Source: Candidatus Termititenax sp.
GTDB taxonomy: Bacteria; Margulisbacteria; Riflemargulisbacteria; GWF2-35-9; DYQY01
Direction of reading: 5' to 3'
Length of the DNA stretch: 24,360 nt
Assembly: GCA_020719045.1 (NCBI GenBank)
Contig: DYQY01000021.1
Coordinates: 1-24,360, forward strand
The notes under the pieces are model-generated. The model had not been told where the DNA came from. It did not search any database and worked only from the letters and a program-made list of their open reading frames with translations. A program made the translations under genes and the position numbers. This document shows positions 2,163 through 13,658 of the stretch, in pieces (position 1 is the first letter of the stretch; every line of letters begins with the position of its first letter).

Positions 2163-3362
2163 CTACTGAAAAGACAACTCATCAAGATAATAAGTAATAA
2201 ATCTATTATTTTGATTAATTAACTGAACCTCTCTAAAAAGTTTTTCAGACTCAAAATACTTTCCTTCGTTAAAAAGCTGTTTAGCTTTTACAAACTTATC
2301 CCACGTTAAGCTCTCCTGCGGTAAGGAAGACTCAACGAATTGAATAGCTTTTTCAAGCCTCTCAAGAATTACCTTAACTTCCTTTCTAGAAGGATCGAAA
2401 GATAAAACATACTCAAGCCTTTGCTTAGCTAAATAAAAATAATCACTATTTAACATCTCCTGAGACTCAGCTAAAGCCTTCTCAACCTGATCTTTTGTCA
2501 TCTCGTCCATTGATTTTCCAAAATTAATATTTACTGAAAAAGCTATCTTGCTAGCTAACTCATTCATAATATAGGCAACATCCGCATCCATTATGCCTAG
2601 CTTTACTCCACCACCAAAACTAATCTCGTTATTATTAACACCAACCCTAAGAGGAATATTCTTTACTGGTTCATACTCAACACCAAAATGCCACTCATTA
2701 AAATTATCTCTAGCATCTAAAGCAAAAAGCATATTCTGCTCCTTATATCCAATTCCAAACATTGCTTGTGGGTTTAATTTATCTAACGTTTTGCCTAAAA
2801 CCATTCCAAAAACATTCATTAAATTAACTCCTGCAGAAAATCTATCTGAAATGTTGTAAATCATTGAAACATCGCCTGCAACTGCCATATCACTAGCTTC
2901 TCCCAGCGAACGCATATAAAATTTACCCTTTAAAGCCATATATAAATCTCGCATTATTCTCTTGCTGTATGTTGCTCCAAAAGCCATTTTGCTATCCTGT
3001 ACCATACCAGTGAACTGATTATACATATCCCTTCCCTCAATACCTGAGCCTCCGAACATAATAAATTCCACACCTAAAGCATCATCAACACCAGGAATAG
3101 CAAAAGCTCCATACATAGAACTGTAACTCTGATAAAGCATAGACATTTGAAACATGCCCTGCATACTTTGAAGTTTCATTACACCAGCTGGATTCCAAAA
3201 AAGACCAGACGCATCATTTCCTAAGGCAACATATGACCTTCCCATACCTAAAGCACGTGCACCATAACCCCATTCCAAATCAGAACCATAATGAAGTGGT
3301 CCAGCAGAAAATGTAATGGAAGTAAAAACCAAAATAATTATGGCTAAAAATCTATAAATCAC
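2163..3362 (-). CDS. PorV/UPF0164-like outer-membrane beta-barrel protein with C-terminal helical repeats
   Basis: The protein has an N-terminal signal peptide (hydrophobic run ending ITFSA). The hallmark segment of the PorV/PorQ/UPF0164 family follows: GARALGMG, then YVALGNDASGLFWNPAG. A beta-barrel-like body with alternating aromatic strands extends to about residue 285. The last 100 or so residues are helical and TPR-like (LAKQRLEYVLSFDP, then LFNEGKYFESEKLF), an addition to the usual barrel. In Bacteroidota PorV is an outer-membrane partner of type IX secretion; homologues elsewhere are uncharacterised, so secretion is an inference. I chose the GTG at 3362 because GAGGGG lies 5 nt upstream; an in-frame GTG at 3368 abuts that site and is less likely. 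The large secreted repeat protein follows directly, which makes a transporter/cargo or anchor/surface-protein pair plausible. Confidence 0.8.
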   Translation of the reverse strand: MIYRFLAIIILVFTSITFSAGPLHYGSDLEWGYGARALGMGRSYVALGNDASGLFWNPAGVMKLQSMQGMFQMSMLYQSYSSMYGAFAIPGVDDALGVEFIMFGGSGIEGRDMYNQFTGMVQDSKMAFGATYSKRIMRDLYMALKGKFYMRSLGEASDMAVAGDVSMIYNISDRFSAGVNLMNVFGMVLGKTLDKLNPQAMFGIGYKEQNMLFALDARDNFNEWHFGVEYEPVKNIPLRVGVNNNEISFGGGVKLGIMDADVAYIMNELASKIAFSVNINFGKSMDEMTKDQVEKALAESQEMLNSDYFYLAKQRLEYVLSFDPSRKEVKVILERLEKAIQFVESSLPQESLTWDKFVKAKQLFNEGKYFESEKLFREVQLINQNNRFITYYLDELSFQ

Positions 3363-3549
3363 GCACACCCCTCAAACCCCTATTCACCATTAGTCTTATG
3401 CCCTAAAATATAAGAAATAAACATTTTTTATCTCTGTTTCAACACATAAATACAACATAAAAAAATACACAGTATTTACACTCAATATTTTAGCCTAATA
3501 AACAAAAAAAAACTATTAAAACGAGGATAATTAATAGAGACTTAACCTG
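3363..3549. other. Intergenic gap, no gene seen
   Basis: About 187 bp of very AT-rich DNA separate the coiled-coil gene from the PorV-like gene. I see no convincing sigma-70 promoter with correct spacing, no hairpin followed by a T-tract, and no small ORF with a ribosome binding site. The only landmark is the GAGGGG ribosome binding site of the PorV-like gene (3368-3373). Confidence 0.5.
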
Positions 3550-6500
3550 CTAATTTAAAGCATCAGAAGCAACTGATTTTTCACACTCTCCAACCAACAC
3601 ATCATAACTCTGTATTAATCTTTTCTTCTTTGATTTTAAATCATCAACTAACTGTTGATTATACTTCTCTTCTTTGGTAATTAACCCAGTATAATAAGTC
3701 TTTATCTGCTCCCTTTTATTTTGAAAATCCTTATTTATTTTTTCCAGCCCACTTTGAATATCTAATTTCTGTTGTTCATATCTGCTTTTTTCATTCTTTA
3801 ATAGGTTTTGATACTCTGTACGTAAAGAATCAAGCTGTCTATCATAATGTCTAACTAATTGCTCTTTTTTACTTAGCATCTCATTTTGCTTGTTTTCAAA
3901 ATCCACCATTTCTCTTCTTAAAATATCTTCATTATCAGCTCTATACTTTGCAACTGTATGTTCATAGTTTTTTTGTAATTCCGACTTCCTAACCTTTAGC
4001 TCGTTCTCCATAATATTAACATCCTGATTATATTGCTTCATCTTTTTCTGATACAACATTTTTGCTTGTCTAAGGTTAGAACGATATATCCCCATTATTT
4101 CTTCTTTTTTGTCATCAATTTGTTTTTTAAATTCCAAATAATTTACTCTATGATCCTCAGTCATTTTAGAGTAATTATTAATCATTTCATTTACTTTTGT
4201 CTTTAACATTTCTTCAATTTTTTGCGTTTTTTTAAAATAATCTTCCTGCTTCTTATCCAACTCTTCTTTCATAAGCAGTATAGTCTCTTCCATTTCTTTT
4301 TTCTTACCTTCAATTCTTTCAGCTGAAATATCGCTTAACCTCTTTAATTCATCTCCCATAATATCCACAAGACCTTTTTTCTCTTGCTCATACGCATCCT
4401 TAAGGCACTTAACGTCAACTTCATACTTATTTTTCATTTCCTTAATGTTCTCTTCGTAAGCACTATATTCCTTGTTATATTTATCATTCAAATCATTAAT
4501 TTTTATGGTAATTTCTTGCTTTTGTGTTGAATACCTATTCTTAATCTCTGTTATTTTTGGCAAAATCTCTTCCCTAGCAATATGATACTGTGATTCAATT
4601 TCTTTTACCTTTTGACTAAGTTCATTTTCTCTCTCTTTAATTCTATTGGCGACTTCTATTGCCCTAATATTCTTTAAATTACTCTCCTCGGCTGACTTAT
4701 CTAATTCCTGCTTTTTTGCTCTTAACTGTGACAGAAGTATTTGCAACTTATTAATCTCATCTTTTCCTTGAAAAAGAATAACATTAACCTCTGCGGAAGC
4801 TCTCTCCTTTGCATCAAACAAAATACTTTCAGCTCTTTTTGTGGCCTCATAAATAATCCTATTAGTTTGATCCATAGCTTCTCTTTCCGCTGTTAACCGT
4901 ATCTCATTAGCTTTGTTCTCAGCCTGCTCCCTAGTAGAAACTATAATACTTTCTCTCTCTACTTTTGCTTGAATGATAGTTTTTTGCAATAAGTCCTTTG
5001 CCTTGCCTTCCTGTTCTTCCATTATTTGACGATAAATTTCCTGAGCTTTTTGCTTGGAGTCTCTAATAGAATTCTGCCTAATCTCTGCTACTTGAATATT
5101 GGCATCACCAATTATTTCCTCAGCTCTTGTTTTAGCATCATAACTAGATTGAGCGATAAGTTGCTCTTTTCGCTGCTCAGCATCCCTAATCTTTGACTCC
5201 AAATCATTACCGATTAAGACAGCCTGCTTATTAGCTCCTTCAAGCACATCGTTAGCTTCCTTCTCAGCCACAAAAATTATATTTTGAGCTCTTTTTTGAG
5301 CCTCCGCTATGATTTTCTCGGATTCCTTTTCTGCCCTAGACACAACACCTTGCTTAATATCGTCTCGCAGGGTACTCGCATCTTCTTTAGCTTTCTCTAT
5401 CAATTCATACGCATCATTCTTAGCTTTTTTTACAATTTGCTCTGCAAGAACATTGGCTTCATTAATTATTTTTTCAGATTTTTTACCAGATTCATTAAGC
5501 GTACTGTCTCTATACTCAATAATTTCACCCCTTAGTCTCTTCTTGTAATTGAGAACCATTGCTTCGCATTCTGTCTTAGTTTTTTCTAATAAATGAAGTT
5601 TTTCCTCTTCTGCCTGCTTAAGGATAGTTTCTCTTTCTTCATAAACCTCATCATTTGATTGTTTCTTAACCGACTCCATCATTAGCTCACACTCTTCATG
5701 TGCACTTTTTAGAAGACTAAACTTTTCTTCTTTGGCAATATTTAACATAAAGTCTACTTCTTCATTTGCCTGGCTAATAATCTTATCTGCTTGCTTTTTA
5801 GCATCCTCAATTATCTCATCCCTTGTTCTTGCCTCAACTTCAGTTACTTCATTTTGCACCCTACTAACTATTAAATCATATTCCTTCTGAGCCCTAACAT
5901 TTGCTTCTGCGATTAAACTATCAGCTTCATCAGTAGCCTTAGCAATAATCTCTGAAGATTTTTCTTCTGCTTCACTAATTATGTGTGACGCTTTCATTTG
6001 TGATTCTTTTAAATTTTCAAATTTATTACTTGATTCCAATAATAATTTTTCTGCTTCGTTCTTTGCATTCAGCCTTAGAACCTCAACCTCAACATTGGCA
6101 GACTCTATGATGCTCTTCTTAATAAACTCAGCATCAGATAACATTGCTACCTTAATAGCCTCTGACTCTTCTCTCGCTCTTGTACGAATCTGTTCTGACT
6201 CAAACAACGCCTGATTCTTCACTTTCTCTGATTCATCTTTTGCGGACGACTTAATTAACTCAACATCATAATAAGCTTGCTGTTTAATTTGGTCTGCTTC
6301 ATACTGGGCTTGACTCTTTATTTGCTCAAAATAAACAGGATTTGTTTGACCAAATAAATACTTAGGATCTTCCTTCGCTTTCTCGACTTGTCGGTTCAGT
6401 TTAATTCTCTCAGCTTGAAGTTGGTTAACATCATGTAATAAAAGTTGCTTCCTTTGAAAAAACTCATTCAGTAACTTCTTTTGATATTCTTGTTGGGAAG

Positions 6501-6804
6501 CAAATTCCAGTCTCTTCTTTTCCTCAAAATCCCGAACTTTTTCTTCTATCTTAAGCTTCCTAGCTTCTAACTCAGAAATCTCCAACAATAACTGCTCTCG
6601 CTTACTCTCCAAGCCTAAAATATTCTGTTCTGTTTTGCCTTTTTTTATATGAATTTCACCTAAAGTATCTATTGAATCTTTAATAGAATCATGTACATCT
6701 TTTTCAACTGCCTTATGAAAAATCTTAATATCAGGATTGTCCAATATTTGCTTATTCAAAATTTCATCGGCCGCATAAATTTTCTTTTGAAGAATTTCTA
6801 CCAT
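3550..6804 (-). CDS. Giant coiled-coil rod protein with 11-residue (hendecad) repeats
   Basis: The protein has 1084 residues and starts at ATG 6804 behind a GGGGGAAGAGGG ribosome binding site. Residues 1-60 look like a small non-coil head. Residues 61-145 are heptad coiled coil, and 146-160 form a Pro/Gly linker. Residues 161 to about 680 are hendecad repeats; eight in-phase 11-residue blocks begin at residue 165 (for example QAQYEADQIKQ, QAYYDVELIKS, QALFESEQIRT). About 680-1084 is conventional long coiled coil. I count one proline after residue 160. There is no signal peptide or membrane segment, so it is probably cytoplasmic. Hendecad rods occur in bacterial scaffold proteins such as Streptomyces Scy and in stalk-like proteins; no orthology is claimed. 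It has its own promoter downstream of the motAB/receiver genes. A polar or cytoskeletal scaffold is the best guess, but the function is unknown. Confidence 0.85.
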   Translation of the reverse strand: MVEILQKKIYAADEILNKQILDNPDIKIFHKAVEKDVHDSIKDSIDTLGEIHIKKGKTEQNILGLESKREQLLLEISELEARKLKIEEKVRDFEEKKRLEFASQQEYQKKLLNEFFQRKQLLLHDVNQLQAERIKLNRQVEKAKEDPKYLFGQTNPVYFEQIKSQAQYEADQIKQQAYYDVELIKSSAKDESEKVKNQALFESEQIRTRAREESEAIKVAMLSDAEFIKKSIIESANVEVEVLRLNAKNEAEKLLLESSNKFENLKESQMKASHIISEAEEKSSEIIAKATDEADSLIAEANVRAQKEYDLIVSRVQNEVTEVEARTRDEIIEDAKKQADKIISQANEEVDFMLNIAKEEKFSLLKSAHEECELMMESVKKQSNDEVYEERETILKQAEEEKLHLLEKTKTECEAMVLNYKKRLRGEIIEYRDSTLNESGKKSEKIINEANVLAEQIVKKAKNDAYELIEKAKEDASTLRDDIKQGVVSRAEKESEKIIAEAQKRAQNIIFVAEKEANDVLEGANKQAVLIGNDLESKIRDAEQRKEQLIAQSSYDAKTRAEEIIGDANIQVAEIRQNSIRDSKQKAQEIYRQIMEEQEGKAKDLLQKTIIQAKVERESIIVSTREQAENKANEIRLTAEREAMDQTNRIIYEATKRAESILFDAKERASAEVNVILFQGKDEINKLQILLSQLRAKKQELDKSAEESNLKNIRAIEVANRIKERENELSQKVKEIESQYHIAREEILPKITEIKNRYSTQKQEITIKINDLNDKYNKEYSAYEENIKEMKNKYEVDVKCLKDAYEQEKKGLVDIMGDELKRLSDISAERIEGKKKEMEETILLMKEELDKKQEDYFKKTQKIEEMLKTKVNEMINNYSKMTEDHRVNYLEFKKQIDDKKEEIMGIYRSNLRQAKMLYQKKMKQYNQDVNIMENELKVRKSELQKNYEHTVAKYRADNEDILRREMVDFENKQNEMLSKKEQLVRHYDRQLDSLRTEYQNLLKNEKSRYEQQKLDIQSGLEKINKDFQNKREQIKTYYTGLITKEEKYNQQLVDDLKSKKKRLIQSYDVLVGECEKSVASDALN

Positions 6805-6828: not shown

Positions 6829-6858
6829 ATATTATGACAAATGAGCCACAAGTGTCAA
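6829..6858 (-). promoter_or_regulatory. Sigma-70-type promoter for the coiled-coil gene
   Basis: On the minus strand there is a perfect -35 TTGACA (6858-6853). The -10 is either CATAAT with 16-bp spacing (6836-6831) or TAATAT with 18-bp spacing (6834-6829). The expected start of transcription is 15-20 nt before the ribosome binding site at 6808-6819. An inverted repeat TGACA-N13-TGTCA overlaps the -35 and spacer and could be an operator. Confidence 0.7.
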
Positions 6859-6936: not shown

Positions 6937-7899
6937 CTAACTCTTAGACTTTGGCAACACCTTCAAAAAGTACTTAACTTCTTCATTATTTGGCTGATAG
7001 TAGAGCACCTTTTCCCAATATTTTTTTGCTTTTTCAAAGTCTCTCAACATATAATAAGTAGACCCTTTAAGTTTTAAAGCTCCAATGTGTTTAGGGTCCT
7101 CTTTTAACACAATATTACATTGCTGAATAACAACCCAATACTTATAGTTGTAAAAATTAAGCAAAGCCTGATTTAACCTCTTATCTAATAAATCTAAATC
7201 ATCTAAAGATAAATCTTCATTAAACTTCTGATACAACCTATCCTTTTTAGTTGCAAACTTCCAAAACATCACATAGTACTCTCTATTAGACAAACTGTAC
7301 TTACTGAGCTCAATCCTATCTAATGCACTTGCATACCCTAAGATATACTCACTCACGGCAGCACCTACGTACTCTTCCTCCTTTTTTCTTTTTTCTACAC
7401 GATATCTACTCACAGAACGATTAAATCCATCAATCTTTGTTATTAATGCTAAAAAATCTCTTCTTAAAAAAGGCTCCTGTCCTTTTTTGTCCAAAGCAAA
7501 TTTGTCATCCTTGTATACAGCAGAAAACATACTTAATGCATTAGAAATATTACAGGTAGCATATCCAAAAGCATCATCAGAGATAATGCCTTTCTCGTAC
7601 ATATACTGCATATAAGGATACTCTGGTGTTGCTTTACCGTAAGCCTTATTATACGGTTCTTCCTGCTTAGCATTTAAGGTTATACCACTTACAAACAGCA
7701 AACTTAACGCTACCTGATAATTAGTAAGCTCAGCATCCAATTGGAAGGAATTGTCTATGAACGCTGGAAGAAATAGATTTTCAGCCAAATAGTACACTTG
7801 GTCGCGATACTGATAATTTTTAGTTACGTCTACCAACTCAATAGAGAATGCTAAAGATAAGCCAAATAATAATATAAAAACTAAGGATGTTAATCTCAT
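6937..7899 (-). CDS. Secreted protein with degenerate SLH-like motifs and C-terminal TPR
   Basis: Starting from the ATG at 7899, the protein has 320 residues and opens with a clean signal peptide (MRLTSLVFILLFGLSLAFS). The frame extends upstream to a TTG at 7938, only 9 nt after the preceding stop, but that form would put a polar stretch before the signal. No start has a clear ribosome binding site. The middle carries segments reminiscent of S-layer-homology repeats (YPYMQYMYEKGIISDDAF; then EPFLRRDFLALITKIDGF), but the match is weak. The last 80 residues are a TPR pair (KYWVVIQQCNIVLKEDP, then YMLRDFEKAKKYWEKVL). It is the last gene of the motA-motB-receiver-receiver run. A periplasmic or envelope-bound adaptor is likely; the function is unknown. 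Confidence 0.7.
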   Translation of the reverse strand: MRLTSLVFILLFGLSLAFSIELVDVTKNYQYRDQVYYLAENLFLPAFIDNSFQLDAELTNYQVALSLLFVSGITLNAKQEEPYNKAYGKATPEYPYMQYMYEKGIISDDAFGYATCNISNALSMFSAVYKDDKFALDKKGQEPFLRRDFLALITKIDGFNRSVSRYRVEKRKKEEEYVGAAVSEYILGYASALDRIELSKYSLSNREYYVMFWKFATKKDRLYQKFNEDLSLDDLDLLDKRLNQALLNFYNYKYWVVIQQCNIVLKEDPKHIGALKLKGSTYYMLRDFEKAKKYWEKVLYYQPNNEEVKYFLKVLPKSKS

Positions 7900-7947
7900 A
7901 CAATTCATAATATTATTCGCAAAAATGGTGAATCGCAATAAGTATAA

Positions 7948-8307
7948 CTAAATAGCAAGAAGTTTATTTATCTTTTCAAGTAACTTATCTTCTTCAAAAG
8001 GTTTCTTAATAAATCCTTTTGCGCCAAGCTTAACTGTTTCCATAATCGTTTCTTGTTGGTCGACGTTGGTGAGCATAACGACCTTTGCATCCTTATTTAT
8101 CTCTTTAATTTGCTTTAAAACTTCAATGCCAGTCATGTCAGGCATAGTAACATCTAAAAAAATAATGTCAGGATTTTCTTTTTTAAAAGACTCTATTCCA
8201 GTTGGTCCATCCTCGGCCAAAGCTACCTCAAAACCACAACGTAGCAGAAACTTCTCTACTCTCATTCTAATAAAAGCTGCATCGTCGATAACTAGTATCT
8301 TTGTCAT
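7948..8307 (-). CDS. Single-domain CheY-like response regulator
   Basis: A stand-alone receiver domain of 119 residues with no output domain. The acidic pair is D8/D9, the phospho-acceptor is D52 (in FLDVTMPD), the switch Thr is T80, and the conserved Lys is K102 before P103. The family relays phosphate from a histidine kinase to a protein partner. The start overlaps the stop of the upstream receiver by 4 nt (ATGA), so translation is coupled. It follows motA/motB, which suggests control of a motor or of the adjacent envelope apparatus. No kinase, CheA or CheZ is present in the window. It resembles the neighbouring receiver closely in layout, as expected of a tandem duplication. Confidence 0.92.
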   Translation of the reverse strand: MTKILVIDDAAFIRMRVEKFLLRCGFEVALAEDGPTGIESFKKENPDIIFLDVTMPDMTGIEVLKQIKEINKDAKVVMLTNVDQQETIMETVKLGAKGFIKKPFEEDKLLEKINKLLAI

Positions 8308-8663
8308 GCCTCTAAAACTCTATAAACCTCGTCTAAAAAAACTACATCTTTATGTGGCTTCTTTATAAAAGCATCTACCCTTAATTCCTGTATTTTCTTA
8401 AGCATCGTCTCATTTGATGCACTAGAAACAACAATAACCTTTGCATTCGGAGTATGGTCTCTTATAATCTTCAAAACACCAACGCCTTGGATCCCAGGCA
8501 AAATATTATCGAGAACAACCAAATCCGGTTTTTCGTTCCTAAACAGCTCAAGTCCTTTTTCGCCATTCTCTGCCTCAATTACCGTAAACCCCTGTTTTTC
8601 TAGTAATGTTCTTATTTGAAGCCTATAAAAAGCAGCATCATCAATTATTAATATTTTTTTCAT
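8304..8663 (-). CDS. Single-domain CheY-like response regulator, second paralogue
   Basis: A 119-residue receiver from ATG 8663. That start has GGGAG 8 nt upstream and gives an MKKILIIDDAAF beginning that matches the neighbour. An upstream in-frame GTG at 8678 lies before the binding site and is rejected. Key residues are D8/D9, D52 (in VVLDNILPG), S80 at the switch position (Thr in the other receiver), and K102-P103. It sits between motB and the first receiver, with which it shares a 4-nt overlap. The paralogues keep identical residue numbering for the active site but differ in the switch residue and in the segment after D52, so they may have different partners. Confidence 0.92.
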   Translation of the reverse strand: MKKILIIDDAAFYRLQIRTLLEKQGFTVIEAENGEKGLELFRNEKPDLVVLDNILPGIQGVGVLKIIRDHTPNAKVIVVSSASNETMLKKIQELRVDAFIKKPHKDVVFLDEVYRVLEA

Positions 8664-8725
8664 AATTATTACTCCCACACTAACAACTAAAATAATTTAA
8701 ACATACATAAGTTTCTAAATCAACA

Positions 8726-9553
8726 CTATATTGGTATCGCTACATTACTTGGCAATGCAACTAGACCATCTACAGCATCTACTCCTTGTGCTTTTAGAGT
8801 TTCTTTCGTTTCATTAACCTTCTTTGCATGCAACAGAATGTTTACTTCTATTCTTCTATTAACAGCACGATGCTCCTTGGTGTCATTGTCTACTCTTGGC
8901 CTATACTCCCCATAACCTATTGCTGAAACCCTAAAAGGGTCAATCTTGTGTTTATTCACCATATACTTAAGCACAGTATAAGCTCTATCAAAGGAAAGCT
9001 GCCAATTATCATCGTACATCTCATTTTTAATAGGCAAATTATCAGTATGACCTTCAATAATAATATCGTTTTCTATCGTTGTTAAAATCTCCTTTATTAT
9101 CGGATCCAAATATGCACTTGCTCCAGGCTTCAAGTATGCATAACCAGAATTAAACAGTACTGGTTGGTTAAAAATGAGCCTTATCTTTTGCTCTTCAATA
9201 ACCATCTCAATATACTGCTTCATTGTTTCTTTCTCGACAATTTTCTTAATATTATTAATTAACTGCGTTTTTTGCTGAACTTCTAATTCCTCAGCCTTTG
9301 CTTCCTTGCTTTGGATGATTGGATCGGGTGGCGGTGTCTTGACATCCTCAGTGACCATATTCAACCTCTGTCTGAATCCATGTTTGATTTGTTCTACAAC
9401 AGTATCGCTATCTCCAGACACAGGGCTCTTAGAAAGATTTAAAGCTGCTATTGTATATAATAAAATAAAAAAGGTAAGCATCTGACACATAAGGTCACCC
9501 ATAATTGCGTCAGCGATATTCCCCCCAGATTCAGCTCCTTTTTTTTTACCCAT
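8726..9553 (-). CDS. motB: MotB-like stator subunit (OmpA-type peptidoglycan binding)
   Basis: The protein has 275 residues. After a short basic cytoplasmic N-terminus comes the single membrane helix with the MotB signature: D20 in GDLMCQMLTFFILL aligns with the ion-carrying Asp of MotB/PomB. A periplasmic linker with a Pro cluster (residues 74-76) leads to an OmpA-like domain at about 125-240, with EGHTDN (167-172), NWQLSFDRA (183-191) and NRRIE (232-236). The family couples ion flow to torque and anchors the stator to peptidoglycan. It begins 6 nt after the motA stop, so the two are surely co-translated. Whether the partner is a flagellar rotor cannot be told from this window. Confidence 0.9.
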   Translation of the reverse strand: MGKKKGAESGGNIADAIMGDLMCQMLTFFILLYTIAALNLSKSPVSGDSDTVVEQIKHGFRQRLNMVTEDVKTPPPDPIIQSKEAKAEELEVQQKTQLINNIKKIVEKETMKQYIEMVIEEQKIRLIFNQPVLFNSGYAYLKPGASAYLDPIIKEILTTIENDIIIEGHTDNLPIKNEMYDDNWQLSFDRAYTVLKYMVNKHKIDPFRVSAIGYGEYRPRVDNDTKEHRAVNRRIEVNILLHAKKVNETKETLKAQGVDAVDGLVALPSNVAIPI

Positions 9554-9559
9554 AATCGC

Positions 9560-10339
9560 CTATTTCTTTACTTTTTTTACAGCATTCTTGTCATTATCTT
9601 GCAAAAAGCTCTTTAGAAACTTCTCAACTTTAGAGGGAATTTCTTCCTTCTCTATCATAAGAATACCTTGAGTAATTAATCTCTTTAAATATGCTTCTTT
9701 TTCTGACATTTCCTTTAGTTTCTCTTTTGCAGGAGTAAATATTAATCCAGCAATAGCACCTCCATACAATGTTGTGATAAGAGCAACAGCCATTGCTGGA
9801 CCAATTTTAGAGGCATCAGACAAGCCTTTAAGTAACTGAATAAGCCCTACAATTGTACCAACCATACCAAATATTGGACCAAAACTTGCCATATTTCCGT
9901 ACATAGAATGTACACTAGCATGCCGGTTCTCCATTTCCTCAATATCGTTAGCAAGAGTCGCTTGAATAAAACTATGTCCTGTTTTCTCTGTTAATAGTTG
10001 AACTCCAAATTTAAGAAATGGTTGCTTAATTGTTTCAACTTCTTTATTAAGAGCAACTCTTCCTTGTGATTTAGAAATTTTTGCTAGTCTAACCAACTCT
10101 TCAATTGCATCCTGAGGACTCATTTGCTTTTTCGGCATAACAACCATTTTCCCTGTTTTCACAAAGATTTTAAATTTACTAAAGGAAGAACTTATTAACA
10201 ACGACGCGAAGGAAAGCCCAACAACAATCAACAAAGATGGAACATCCAGATATGCTTGAGGGTTTACTAATATATCACTTAACCCTACTAGAATAACCAT
10301 AGCTATTATTACGACAGCTATTATAATATTTATTTCCAT
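9560..10339 (-). CDS. motA: MotA/PomA-like stator ion-channel subunit
   Basis: The protein has 259 residues and four membrane helices (about 4-22, 33-51, 150-170, 179-201). The long cytoplasmic loop between helices 2 and 3 is typical of MotA. Signature motifs are GPIFGMVGTIVGLIQLL (P155) and KIGPAMAVALITTLYGG (P181), the conserved prolines of the channel. The second motif is of the compact PomA-like type. ATG 10339 is preceded by AGGGGGA. It is the first gene of the minus-strand run and is divergent from metH. ExbB/TolQ homologues share the fold, but gene length, the loop and the MotB neighbour favour MotA. Confidence 0.92.
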   Translation of the reverse strand: MEINIIIAVVIIAMVILVGLSDILVNPQAYLDVPSLLIVVGLSFASLLISSSFSKFKIFVKTGKMVVMPKKQMSPQDAIEELVRLAKISKSQGRVALNKEVETIKQPFLKFGVQLLTEKTGHSFIQATLANDIEEMENRHASVHSMYGNMASFGPIFGMVGTIVGLIQLLKGLSDASKIGPAMAVALITTLYGGAIAGLIFTPAKEKLKEMSEKEAYLKRLITQGILMIEKEEIPSKVEKFLKSFLQDNDKNAVKKVKK

Positions 10340-10468: not shown

Positions 10469-13045
10469 ATGAGCAAATACCTAAAATTAATCAAACAAGG
10501 CGTTCTAATCTTCCAAGACGGAGGGTTTGGGACCATGCTTCAAAAGCACAAAATTACACCAGAGGATTTCAAGGGTTATGAAGGAACCTTTGAGTATCTA
10601 AACATCACTAGACCAGACATTATCCAAGATATCCACAAACAATACTTGCTTGCTGGCGCAATGGTCATGGACACGAACAGCTTTGGTGGAAATAGAATCA
10701 AACTTAAAGAGGCTGGACTAGAGAATAAAGTCTATGAGCTTAACTATGCTGCAGCGCAAAACGCTAAAGAAGCAATAAAGTCCCTAGGAATAAAAGATGC
10801 ATTTGTAATGGGCTCAATGGGTCCTACTGGCTTTCTACCTTCATCCACAGACCCTACACTTGGCAACATTAGTTTTAACGAGTTATCTGACGTTTTCGAA
10901 GAGCAAGCAAAAGCACTTATCGACGGTGGAGCTGATTTACTATTACTCGAAACTCAACATGACATTTTAGAAGTTAAAGCAGGAATAGTTGGCGCAAGAA
11001 AAGCAATAAACTCCTCATGCAAGGAAGTTGCTCTTCAAGTTCAAGTAACTGTAGACCAATATAGCAACATGTTGTTTGGCACGCACATTCTTACAGCTTT
11101 AACGATTATTAAGGATATGGGTGTTGATGTCTTCGGGATAAACTGTTCAACTGGACCAACCGAAATGGAAAATACAATCAAGCTTCTTAGCGAGAATTCT
11201 CCGCTTCCGATTTCCATAATTCCTAATGCAGGTATGCCAGAAAATGTTGACGGAAAAGCTCACTATAAAATGACACCTGAATTATTTGCTGATGTTATTT
11301 CAAATTATTTAACCAAATACAGAATAAACGTAATCGGCGGTTGCTGCGGAACAACACCTGACCACATTAAAAACGTAAAAATTAAAGCTGAAAGCCTAAA
11401 GCTAACAGATAGAATCAGTAACCCAAAAAATCAAAACATAAATCAATTACCTACTTTTTGCAGTCCAATAAGTATTAAAGAGGGAAAAATAGCACCGCTA
11501 ATAATTGGCGAAAGAATTAACTCACAAGGATCAAGAAAAGCAAAAGATTTAATGCTACAAGATAAATACGATGAACTAATTGACCTTGCTAAATCACAAG
11601 AACAACAAAATGCTGACTTAATAGACTGTTGCTTTGCTATGACAGAAAGGCCAGACGAAGAGCTACAGTTATCCACTTTCAGCAAAAAAGTTGCTTATAC
11701 GACGAACGCACCTCTTTGCTTTGATTCTACAGAAGCATCTGTGCTTGAGTCAGCAGTAAAGTCTTATGCTGGAAAACCATTGATTAATTCTATTAACTTA
11801 GAGAGCGATAAAATTCATCAGATACTACCCATTGTTAAAAGGTTCGGACTTAGCACCATTGCTCTTTGCATAAACGAACAGGGCATGGCAAAAACAGCAG
11901 AGCAAAAAATAGCTATAGCTAAAAAAATATACAACATAGCAACTAATGATTACAACTTAAAAGCTGAACAACTAGTATTTGACACATTAACCTTTACGCT
12001 GGCTACTGGTGAAGATGAATGGAAAAACTCTGCCATAGAGACTTTCGAAGCAATAAAGTTACTCAAAAAGGAACTCCCTGGAGTAAAGACTGTACTTGGC
12101 GTAAGTAACGTTTCATTTGGACTATCTCCTTCTGCACGAAAGATATTAAACCTTGTCTATCTTCATACAGCTGTTGAGTATGGATTAGATATGGCTATTT
12201 TCAACGCAGAACATTTTCATCCTATTTCTGAGCTTAACAAAGATGAAGTTGCACTAGCAAAAGCGCTAATTCTTAACCAAGGAGCTTCTACACTTACTAA
12301 CTTTATTGAACATTTTCAAAAAATAGAAAAACAAAGTGCACCTGCTAAAGATAACAAACAAGTCGTAACAGAAAAGCTTCCACTTAATAAAGCCATTCAA
12401 CAAAAAATAATTACCAGAGACAAAGAAGGTATTGTTGATTTACTTGAACAGCTTAGACAAACCATGAAAGCAGAAGAAATAATAAACACAGTGCTTCTTC
12501 CAGCCATGAAGATTGTTGGGGACAAAATGGAAACAGGAGAAATTATTCTTCCCTTTGTACTTGAATCAGCTGAAATAATGAAAAAATCCATCACGCACCT
12601 CGAACAATATCTAGATAAAAACTCAAACATGTCTAAAGGCACTATCGTGCTTGCAACTGTTTTTGGCGATGTACATGACATTGGTAAAAATCTAGTTAAA
12701 ACGATTACAGAAAATAATGGTTATAAAGTAATTGACCTTGGGAAACAGGTACCTGCTGATAAAATAATTGAAACAGCACTAACCGAGAAAGCTGATGCAA
12801 TAACACTATCTGCATTACTCGTTACAACCTCTAAACAAATGCAAATCATCGTAGAAAAGCTAAACGAACTTGGCAAAAAAATACCAGTAATCATTGGTGG
12901 AGCTGCCATAAATGACAACTTTGCCAAAACTATTTCCAATATTAATGGCAAGCAATATGCTGGTGGAGTGTTCTATTCTAAAGACGCATTTAGTGGATTA
13001 AAAATACTAGAAGGCATAATAAATGACTCAAAAAAAAGTCATTAA
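10469..13045 (+). CDS. metH: Cobalamin-dependent methionine synthase lacking the reactivation domain
   Basis: It transfers a methyl group from methyl-tetrahydrofolate via cobalamin to homocysteine, giving methionine. The 858 residues show modules in order. The homocysteine-binding barrel spans about 1-310; its zinc ligands are C226 (GINCSTGP) and C292/C293 (GGCCGTTPDH). The pterin-binding barrel spans about 340-600 (IIGERINSQGSRK, LCFDST, GVSNVSFGLS). The cobalamin cap is at about 635-720. The B12 domain is at about 725-858, with the DxHxxG motif at D734-H736-G739. Canonical MetH of about 1200 residues also carries a C-terminal AdoMet/flavodoxin reactivation domain; here it is in the next, overlapping gene. 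The start matches the family N-terminus even though no ribosome binding site is visible. Confidence 0.93.
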   Translation: MSKYLKLIKQGVLIFQDGGFGTMLQKHKITPEDFKGYEGTFEYLNITRPDIIQDIHKQYLLAGAMVMDTNSFGGNRIKLKEAGLENKVYELNYAAAQNAKEAIKSLGIKDAFVMGSMGPTGFLPSSTDPTLGNISFNELSDVFEEQAKALIDGGADLLLLETQHDILEVKAGIVGARKAINSSCKEVALQVQVTVDQYSNMLFGTHILTALTIIKDMGVDVFGINCSTGPTEMENTIKLLSENSPLPISIIPNAGMPENVDGKAHYKMTPELFADVISNYLTKYRINVIGGCCGTTPDHIKNVKIKAESLKLTDRISNPKNQNINQLPTFCSPISIKEGKIAPLIIGERINSQGSRKAKDLMLQDKYDELIDLAKSQEQQNADLIDCCFAMTERPDEELQLSTFSKKVAYTTNAPLCFDSTEASVLESAVKSYAGKPLINSINLESDKIHQILPIVKRFGLSTIALCINEQGMAKTAEQKIAIAKKIYNIATNDYNLKAEQLVFDTLTFTLATGEDEWKNSAIETFEAIKLLKKELPGVKTVLGVSNVSFGLSPSARKILNLVYLHTAVEYGLDMAIFNAEHFHPISELNKDEVALAKALILNQGASTLTNFIEHFQKIEKQSAPAKDNKQVVTEKLPLNKAIQQKIITRDKEGIVDLLEQLRQTMKAEEIINTVLLPAMKIVGDKMETGEIILPFVLESAEIMKKSITHLEQYLDKNSNMSKGTIVLATVFGDVHDIGKNLVKTITENNGYKVIDLGKQVPADKIIETALTEKADAITLSALLVTTSKQMQIIVEKLNELGKKIPVIIGGAAINDNFAKTISNINGKQYAGGVFYSKDAFSGLKILEGIINDSKKSH

Positions 13046-13658
13046 CCCAGATAAATTTATCCCGTTCATAAATAAACAAGTTCTCTTCAAGACTTCTTGG
13101 GGACTTAAGGATAACAACAATCAAGACACTATCCAAGAACTAGAAAAAGCATTCATTGCCACAAAAGAGCTTATACTATCCTCTTACATTAAAGGACTAG
13201 TTTATTCTAATATCTTTTCCGTAACTAAAGAAAATAATTCAATTACCTTCCCTGAACACGGAATTACCTGGGAGTTTCCAACTGTAGACGGCAAAAACAT
13301 AGCTTCAGCCGCAGGCAATAAACTTGTGCTACAGGTTGTCACTTTAGGAAAAGAAGTTCTAAAGCTATACGAAGAACTTGAAAACCAAGGAAACTACTCA
13401 AACGCTTTTTATTTCCATGGCTTCACAACATGGATGGCAGAAGCTTTAGCACAATATAATCATAACACTGTAAGAAACGAACTTGGAAGCAGACTACCTC
13501 CTGAAAGATACTCCTTTGGTTATTCGCTTTGCCCTGATATGAGCATGCAAAAAGATTTATTTAAACTTTTAGAACTAAATGAAAATTCTGAAGTCAGATT
13601 AACTGAAAGCTTTATGATGTATCCTGAACAAAGTACTAGTGCACTAATCCTGCATTAA
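13023..13658 (+). CDS. Stand-alone methionine synthase activation domain protein
   Basis: The 211 residues match the C-terminal reactivation domain of MetH. RYSFGYSLCPDMSMQKDLF corresponds to the family's RYSFGYPACPD region, and LTESFMMYPEQSTSALIL to its LTESFMM.P..S segment. HGFTTWMAEALAQY is also typical. The domain binds AdoMet and re-methylates oxidised cobalamin with an electron donor. The gene begins inside metH (23-nt overlap, +1 frame) behind AGAAGG, so it is translationally coupled. At 211 residues it is shorter than the fused domain of about 330. Its 3' end overlaps the convergent pyrophosphatase gene by 23 bp. Confidence 0.85.
   Translation: MTQKKVINPDKFIPFINKQVLFKTSWGLKDNNNQDTIQELEKAFIATKELILSSYIKGLVYSNIFSVTKENNSITFPEHGITWEFPTVDGKNIASAAGNKLVLQVVTLGKEVLKLYEELENQGNYSNAFYFHGFTTWMAEALAQYNHNTVRNELGSRLPPERYSFGYSLCPDMSMQKDLFKLLELNENSEVRLTESFMMYPEQSTSALILH

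Follow-up and report, generated by a model that had tools for sequence, protein, structure and literature searches.

Long, proline-poor hendecad rods that follow a short conserved N-terminal motif are found in Scy and FilP, where this motif reads RGYDxxEVD, and in DivIVA-like proteins the motif GY[DN]xx[QE]V[DN] is located ahead of an N-terminal dimerising coil (PMC9858780). Motors of the MotAB type that are combined with outer-membrane partners and a cytoplasmic coiled coil are found in Myxococcus, i.e., AglRQS-Glt with AglZ; AglRS groups with generic, not flagellar, transporters (PMC12505986). In Bacteroidota, the GldLM/type IX secretion machinery comprises an ion-driven motor, a PorV-family barrel and a large surface protein, while Zorya ZorAB is a MotAB-like motor with a long helical structure. 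In the flagellum, MotA and MotB work with the FliG_M and FliG_C domains of the C-ring, where CheY-P binds FliM/FliY at the peptide EIDALL (PMC9126983).

The locus discussed here is found in an uncultured relative of Cyanobacteria, which belongs to an order of Candidatus Marinamargulisbacteria, in a family that differs from that of the named relatives; the Candidatus Marinamargulisbacteria MAGs LJ_bin-3332 and AM_bin-3330 are among the genomes compared. The window, i.e., the whole stretch of 24,360 nucleotides that was analyzed, encodes on one strand MotA, MotB, two CheY-like regulators, an SLH/TPR protein, a long coiled-coil rod, a PorV-family barrel and an Ig-like exported protein (Table 1). 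No export, hook or filament genes were found at the locus (separate flagellar genes are located elsewhere in the genome), and no FliG gene adjoins the rod gene in the window. Among genes of any size, only a MetH-like gene and the partner that follows it (10469-13658) are on the plus strand.

Table 1. Features of the rod gene and its neighbors, in window coordinates
Feature	Position	Strand	Basis
Exported large Ig-like protein, interrupted by contig end	1..2089	-	orthologue comparison
PorV/PorQ-family outer-membrane barrel, TPR-like tail	2163..3368	-	91.8 bits, cut-off 90
Coiled-coil rod protein, 1084 aa	3550..6804	-	ORF call, ATG start
Near-straight C-terminal coil, residues 681-1084, period 3.635	3553..4764	-	periodicity
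Right-handed rod, residues 160-680, period 3.705, mixed 11/15-residue spacing	4765..6327	-	periodicity
Five strict in-phase hendecads, residues 165-219	6148..6312	-	block rule of the initial annotation
Conserved head coil, residues 60-146, period ~3.55, [FY]ExxKR...LLxDIxxL signature	6367..6627	-	periodicity and head alignment
N-terminal NPD tag, residues 18-31, KQILDNPDIKIFHK; core NPD = 23-25	6712..6753	-	invariant in tagged-head alignment; on unrelated enzymes
Promoter-like site of rod gene, TTGACA-N16-CATAAT	6831..6858	-	consensus match; hexamers kept in same-genus orthologue
Exported SLH-like/TPR protein; homologue fused to FliG in a relative	6937..7938	-	domain match, comparison
CheY-like response regulator 2	7948..8307	-	domain match
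CheY-like response regulator 1	8304..8678	-	domain match
MotB with transmembrane Asp and OmpA peptidoglycan-binding domain	8726..9553	-	OmpA 1.6e-16; transmembrane Asp read from sequence
MotA, PomA/MotA type	9560..10339	-	PomA match 6e-35 over residues 28-249

The open reading frame of 1084 residues described in the initial annotation was confirmed as protein-coding, with an ATG start on the minus strand. Compared with its same-genus orthologue in genome G001 (1052 aa, 59% identical), codon positions 1, 2 and 3 differ by 0.26, 0.19 and 0.55, respectively, and in the 132-nt gap 5' of the gene the -35 and -10 hexamers and the ribosome-binding site are kept; this codon-position bias, together with the conserved upstream elements, indicates a real gene. 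The protein has only four prolines (24, 147, 156 and 749), and the count of one in the last 924 residues given earlier is exact, i.e., Pro749. The helices on the two sides of this residue, 592 and 335 residues in length, correspond arithmetically to ~88 nm and ~50 nm, and the head coil to 13 nm, which agrees with the long proline-poor rod that had been described; the total length is estimated at ~140 nm. No hydrophobic segment was detected (the highest 19-residue Kyte-Doolittle mean is 0.65), and Walker A and LSGG motifs as well as Pfam matches are absent, so that the protein is, as had been stated, neither secreted nor SMC-like; SMC/Rad50 proteins, which carry ABC ATPase heads, can be discarded on the same grounds.

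An analysis of 11- versus 7-residue periodicity, proposed as a check in the initial annotation, yielded hendecad-type periods and no heptads. Residues 160-680 display a hydrophobic period of 3.705 with a power of 34, compared with 5.9 for the 99.9th percentile of shuffled sequences and only 2.6 at a period of 3.5, and the identity autocorrelation peaks at 11, 15, 22, 26, 37 and 41. Periodic spacing thus extends to about residue 680, as had been claimed. According to the usual reckoning of handedness from the period (PMC9858780), this mixture of 11- and 15-residue spacings implies a right-handed segment. The earlier prediction of a right-handed or straight rod is even exceeded, because 3.705 is larger than 11/3. 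The more specific claim of eight in-phase 11-residue blocks from residue 165 holds in part: five blocks (165-219) pass strictly, block 6 conforms to the original rule only if Met is permitted in position 2, and the last two blocks do not conform. Nevertheless, five in succession are seldom reached by chance, given that 400 shuffles gave a mean of 1.5 and a maximum of 5. The left-handed coil that was predicted to follow was not found. Residues 680-1084, with a period of 3.635 (half-height of the two halves ~3.59-3.68) and a power at 3.5 of only 0.5, are essentially straight and close to an unsupercoiled helix. The rod is probably cytoplasmic and dimeric, forming a right-handed-to-straight coiled coil. 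The observation in the initial annotation is, overall, partly confirmed and its interpretation partly supported.

Matches to the rod are confined to the same order among 38 relatives searched, and a profile of the rod head applied to 74 genomes of the phylum recovered this order only, apart from a weak stray match to an SMC-like protein in G069. A contig profile scan with the rod alignment returned no relatives, from a set in which the own genome may have been left out. Homologues were found in the order's seven genomes only. They comprise 109-1939 aa, differ greatly in length between related genomes, have rod periods of 3.63-3.705, never 3.5, and nearly all start with an N-terminal motif, hhxNPD[IVL]xhh, referred to below as the tag. 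The residues N23, P24, D25, E94, K97, R98, L122 and L129 are invariant in the head alignment. Exceptions are a coiled coil in G004:C25, which has NND where the others have NPD, and a 622-aa coiled coil beside the G006 rods that shows no visible tag. Some tagged coiled coils are encoded at flagellar genes (G003:C141; G006:C55) or at unrelated genes, and the rod family is therefore not confined to the motor. At G006:C55 (L020 5744-6500), a 109-aa tagged protein that consists of the head only is encoded directly 5' of a bactofilin-like gene, near fliF-fliJ.

The periods of these homologues and their strong 11-residue autocorrelation are those of a hendecad-rich rod as in Scy/FilP (PMC9858780). 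By analogy, the rod could serve as a scaffold of a general cytoskeletal or polar kind (Scy/FilP/crescentin-like), which would determine the shape or polarity of the cell and recruit numerous tagged clients, with the motor as one of several. Sub-threshold NCBIfam matches to both Wag31 and Scy, the 109-aa tagged protein that adjoins the bactofilin-like gene and the presence of the tag on many unrelated proteins (see below) are consistent with such a role, which is nevertheless less probable, as the rods are strongly linked to one part of the MotA tree (see below) and vary so much in length among related genomes. Furthermore, the homology comparison with Scy, crescentin-like and DivIVA families proposed in the initial annotation gave a negative outcome: the DivIVA-like motif is present in 0/11 family members, which excludes membership in DivIVA/GpsB/FilP/Scy, and the scores of the curated models are far below their cut-offs (Wag31, 50.7 of 260 bits; Scy, 38.8 of 1040), with no Pfam family. 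In contrast to Scy/FilP, the rod carries NPD[IVL] in a tag that is portable to enzymes, is partly right-handed and is encoded at a MotAB/FliG locus. Crescentin- and intermediate-filament-like proteins have predominantly heptad rods, and are excluded by the power at 3.5 in both rod halves. AglZ and FrzS, in which the coil follows an N-terminal (pseudo)receiver domain, were rejected because Response_reg is not matched in the rod. Matches of the rod to ATP-synthase b/E and SctL, all under cut-off, reflect generic hendecad-helix similarity.

Judging from sequence matches, the NPD segment is a portable tag that is not specific to rods. Whole-genome searches with tag profiles, i.e., ~22 columns built from the NPD segment, located it close to the N-terminus of a HAD phosphatase (G006), a BioF/SPT-like synthase (host contig C22; G006), an aldehyde-dehydrogenase homologue (G001), a PlsC acyltransferase (G002) and a methyltransferase (G006), and in 5/5 of these enzyme families the tag precedes the matched catalytic domain. 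It is also present on paired proteins of ~470-490 aa (host C25; G001), on several other coiled coils and on small proteins of 85-132 aa. Among ten matches outside the profile-building set, eight place the tag inside the first 45 residues (p = 2.5e-6), and across the phylum matches at E <= 0.01 come from the order's seven genomes and one stray. A mobile DNA element is ruled out by the synonymous variation of the Asn, Pro and Asp codons. The tag resembles the response-regulator strand xPD[IL]hhhD, which is represented in the window by ENPDIIFLD (7948-8307). The idea of a receiver-domain remnant was set aside; only ~10-45 residues precede the tag, and no receiver domain matches. The NPD peptide appears to be a docking tag that had not been reported before.

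For most tagged enzymes, a gene for a multi-TM sensor kinase follows directly or closely and regulators are found nearby; HisKA_7TM was tested and detected in two kinases beside tagged enzymes. We infer a resemblance of such an enzyme and kinase to synthase-sensor pairs such as CqsA/CqsS. On host contig C22 (L162 5395-10457), the gene of the tagged BioF/SPT-like synthase is flanked by those of a response regulator and of a multi-TM sensor-like protein of 790 aa, and similar enzyme-sensor pairs are found in G001:C55, G006:C34, G006:C46 and G002:C83. A pair of tagged proteins, 482 and 481 aa in length, is encoded on host contig C25 (L163 3907-5355, 6645-8090). Their N-terminal 85 residues are identical, the first member is without a Pfam family, and a related pair is found in G001:C33. 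Four small tagged proteins (L172 2884-3186, L168 7369-7635, L170 6686-6943 and L178 6263-6661) have the common C-terminal pattern YKxAExELLKhK...hhxLh and are candidate adaptors of the tag system.

MotA and MotB of the window have the characteristics of a flagellar-type stator. In G004:C5 and G006:C31, a FliG-fusion gene directly adjoins the rod gene and encodes an N-terminal hydrophobic segment, a region of periplasmic size, one TM segment and FliG_M/FliG_C. In G004:C25, the SLH-TPR protein and FliG_C are joined in one protein of 855 aa. At a second site in each of G002 and G005, the fusion clusters with SLH-TPR and genes of CheY-like regulators, two in G002 and a partial one at a contig end in G005. 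In G003 it clusters with SLH-TPR; in the host genome it is found on contig C9, without SLH-TPR or CheY-like neighbors. FliG_C exceeds the cut-off in the fusions of the relatives, and the host C9 fusion matches the PDB FliG 1lkv at 9e-11 over ~200 aa. For FliF_C in the periplasmic region, there is one weak Pfam match (G004:C33, E = 1e-3) in addition to the topology. On this evidence the assignment appears firm for FliG and tentative for FliF. The torque-helix charges are only partly kept compared with the flagellar FliG of the genome, and the classical MotA-FliG contacts may therefore not apply.

The C-termini of eight rod-type fusions end in EIDxLF (4/8), DIDSLF (2/8), DVDALF (1/8) or KIDELF (1/8), resembling the CheY dock of FliM/FliY. 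The host C9 fusion carries the peptide IDQQEIDKLF. In the same genomes, SQNEIDxLL is found at the N-termini of FliN-like proteins; the background is 6 regex matches in 632,924 aa. The G006 fusion sequence EQNEIDQLF is almost the same as the N-terminus SQNEIDQLL of a protein of that genome that is FliN-sized, an assignment based on size and N-terminus only. The locus thus shares with the flagellar C-ring homologous MotA, MotB and FliG_M/C as well as an EIDxL-type CheY-docking peptide, but here FliG is fused to a membrane-anchored periplasmic part and the peptide is C-terminal. The likeness to AglRQS-Glt with AglZ is an analogy, from which the locus differs in the absence of a receiver in the rod, in the FliG-fusion rotor and in the separate CheY-like proteins. 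The analogous GldLM system differs in that the stator here is of the PomA/MotA type with FliG parts; a search for SprA in 8 genomes gave no match, with an equally empty positive control.

A midpoint-rooted tree built from 35 MotA sequences of the class falls into two halves, 17 with FliG-fusion or rod neighbors and 18 of flagellar type. A tagged rod is found within 12 kb at 8/17 loci of the former half and at 0/18 of the latter (Fisher p = 0.001, counting loci as independent, although some are orthologous), and seven of the eight rod-linked MotAs fall in one clade (support 99/92). At the level of gene neighborhoods, the linkage of rods to the FliG-fusion MotAB motor type is well supported. The same counts weigh on the suggestion that the rod is a ruler, spacer or cable of an ordinary flagellar export or switch apparatus and is merely encoded near MotAB. 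Two family members are indeed encoded at flagellar genes (G003:C141, G006:C55), but no flagellar-half MotA locus has a tagged rod within this distance and the whole-genome tag searches gave no match in the flagellar clusters of the host, which makes this suggestion very improbable.

In every motor-linked case MotAB is paired with a long helical protein, and by analogy with the ZorA tail the rod might be a detachable tail of the MotA pentamer, the head of which binds MotA while the rod carries motion or a signal into the cytoplasm. This arrangement is improbable, given that the tag is also found on soluble enzymes without a linked MotA. In addition, PADLOC gives no ZorA match for MotA or the rod, and its ZorB matches are generic MotB/OmpA. 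Membership in Zorya, defined by a ZorA-type MotA with its own long tail, is rejected on the same PADLOC result; here the rod is a separate protein, and PADLOC does not mark the locus as a defense locus.

The motor is wider in distribution than the rods. In L184, from a MAG ('bacterium isolate nzgw234') that is not labelled Margulisbacteria, PorV-TPR, SLH-TPR, FliG fusion and MotA are encoded consecutively, and FliG_C is found in 31/74 genomes of the phylum, often in frames of 480-510 aa. In both L184 and G007 the motor is present and a tagged rod was not detected; the rod is therefore an addition rather than a core part, and the filament-less motor is probably older than its rods. No description of this motor was found in open-licence papers that deal with a FliF-FliG fusion or with FliG in connection with gliding or PorV. 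The host has another filament-less motor locus, on contig C17 (L051 205-11957), where a FliG fusion, a separate FliG, MotA, MotB and a 2617-aa exported protein with an FlgD-Ig domain are encoded; a tagged rod and an EIDxLF tail are both absent there. In several families of the phylum, FliF exceeds the Pfam cut-off and FliG_C is not matched. On host contig C3 (L050 14742-18301), an open reading frame of at least 1186 aa, the N-terminus of which suggests a Cas12a-type effector, is located directly after flagellar export genes.

From the above discussion, the reading that we prefer, at a probability of roughly one half, is that the rod, docked by its tag, acts as a cytoplasmic scaffold in a filament-less envelope motor of the FliG/MotAB type. 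Several observations count against this reading: the promoter-like site of its own upstream of the rod gene, the lack of a FliG gene beside the rod in the window, the tagged coiled coils at flagellar or unrelated genes, the motors of G007 and L184 in which no tagged rod was detected, and the partly kept torque-helix charges. In such a scaffolded motor, MotAB would turn or push a ring of FliG fusions, and CheY-like regulators would dock on the tail of the fusion to switch the motor. SLH-TPR and PorV-TPR would then transmit the motion to the Ig protein at the surface, the movement of which may serve gliding, adhesin movement or secretion. The NPD tag of the rod would dock to a hub common to the other tagged proteins, and docked rods of lineage-specific length could place or link motor units within the cell. 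What we infer here concerns the mechanical role of the rod, the binding partner of the tag and the output of the motor (gliding, secretion or adhesion). In a broader and more tentative version, hhxNPD[IVL]xhh might be a general address label in one Candidatus Marinamargulisbacteria order, carried by rods, by acyl-signal-type enzymes paired with sensor kinases and by small adaptors, all of which would be directed to one hub that also organizes the filament-less FliG/MotAB motor, which CheY would switch and which would drive a surface protein.

If the preferred reading is right, a flagellar switch and stator work without a filament in a lineage near Cyanobacteria, and a FliG fusion that is anchored in the membrane and carries a CheY dock of its own is coupled to a barrel of the outer membrane and to a surface protein. 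A filament-less motor of this kind bears on the reuse of flagellar parts in other motors, and an N-terminal motif common to rods and unrelated enzymes would constitute a lineage-specific sorting signal.
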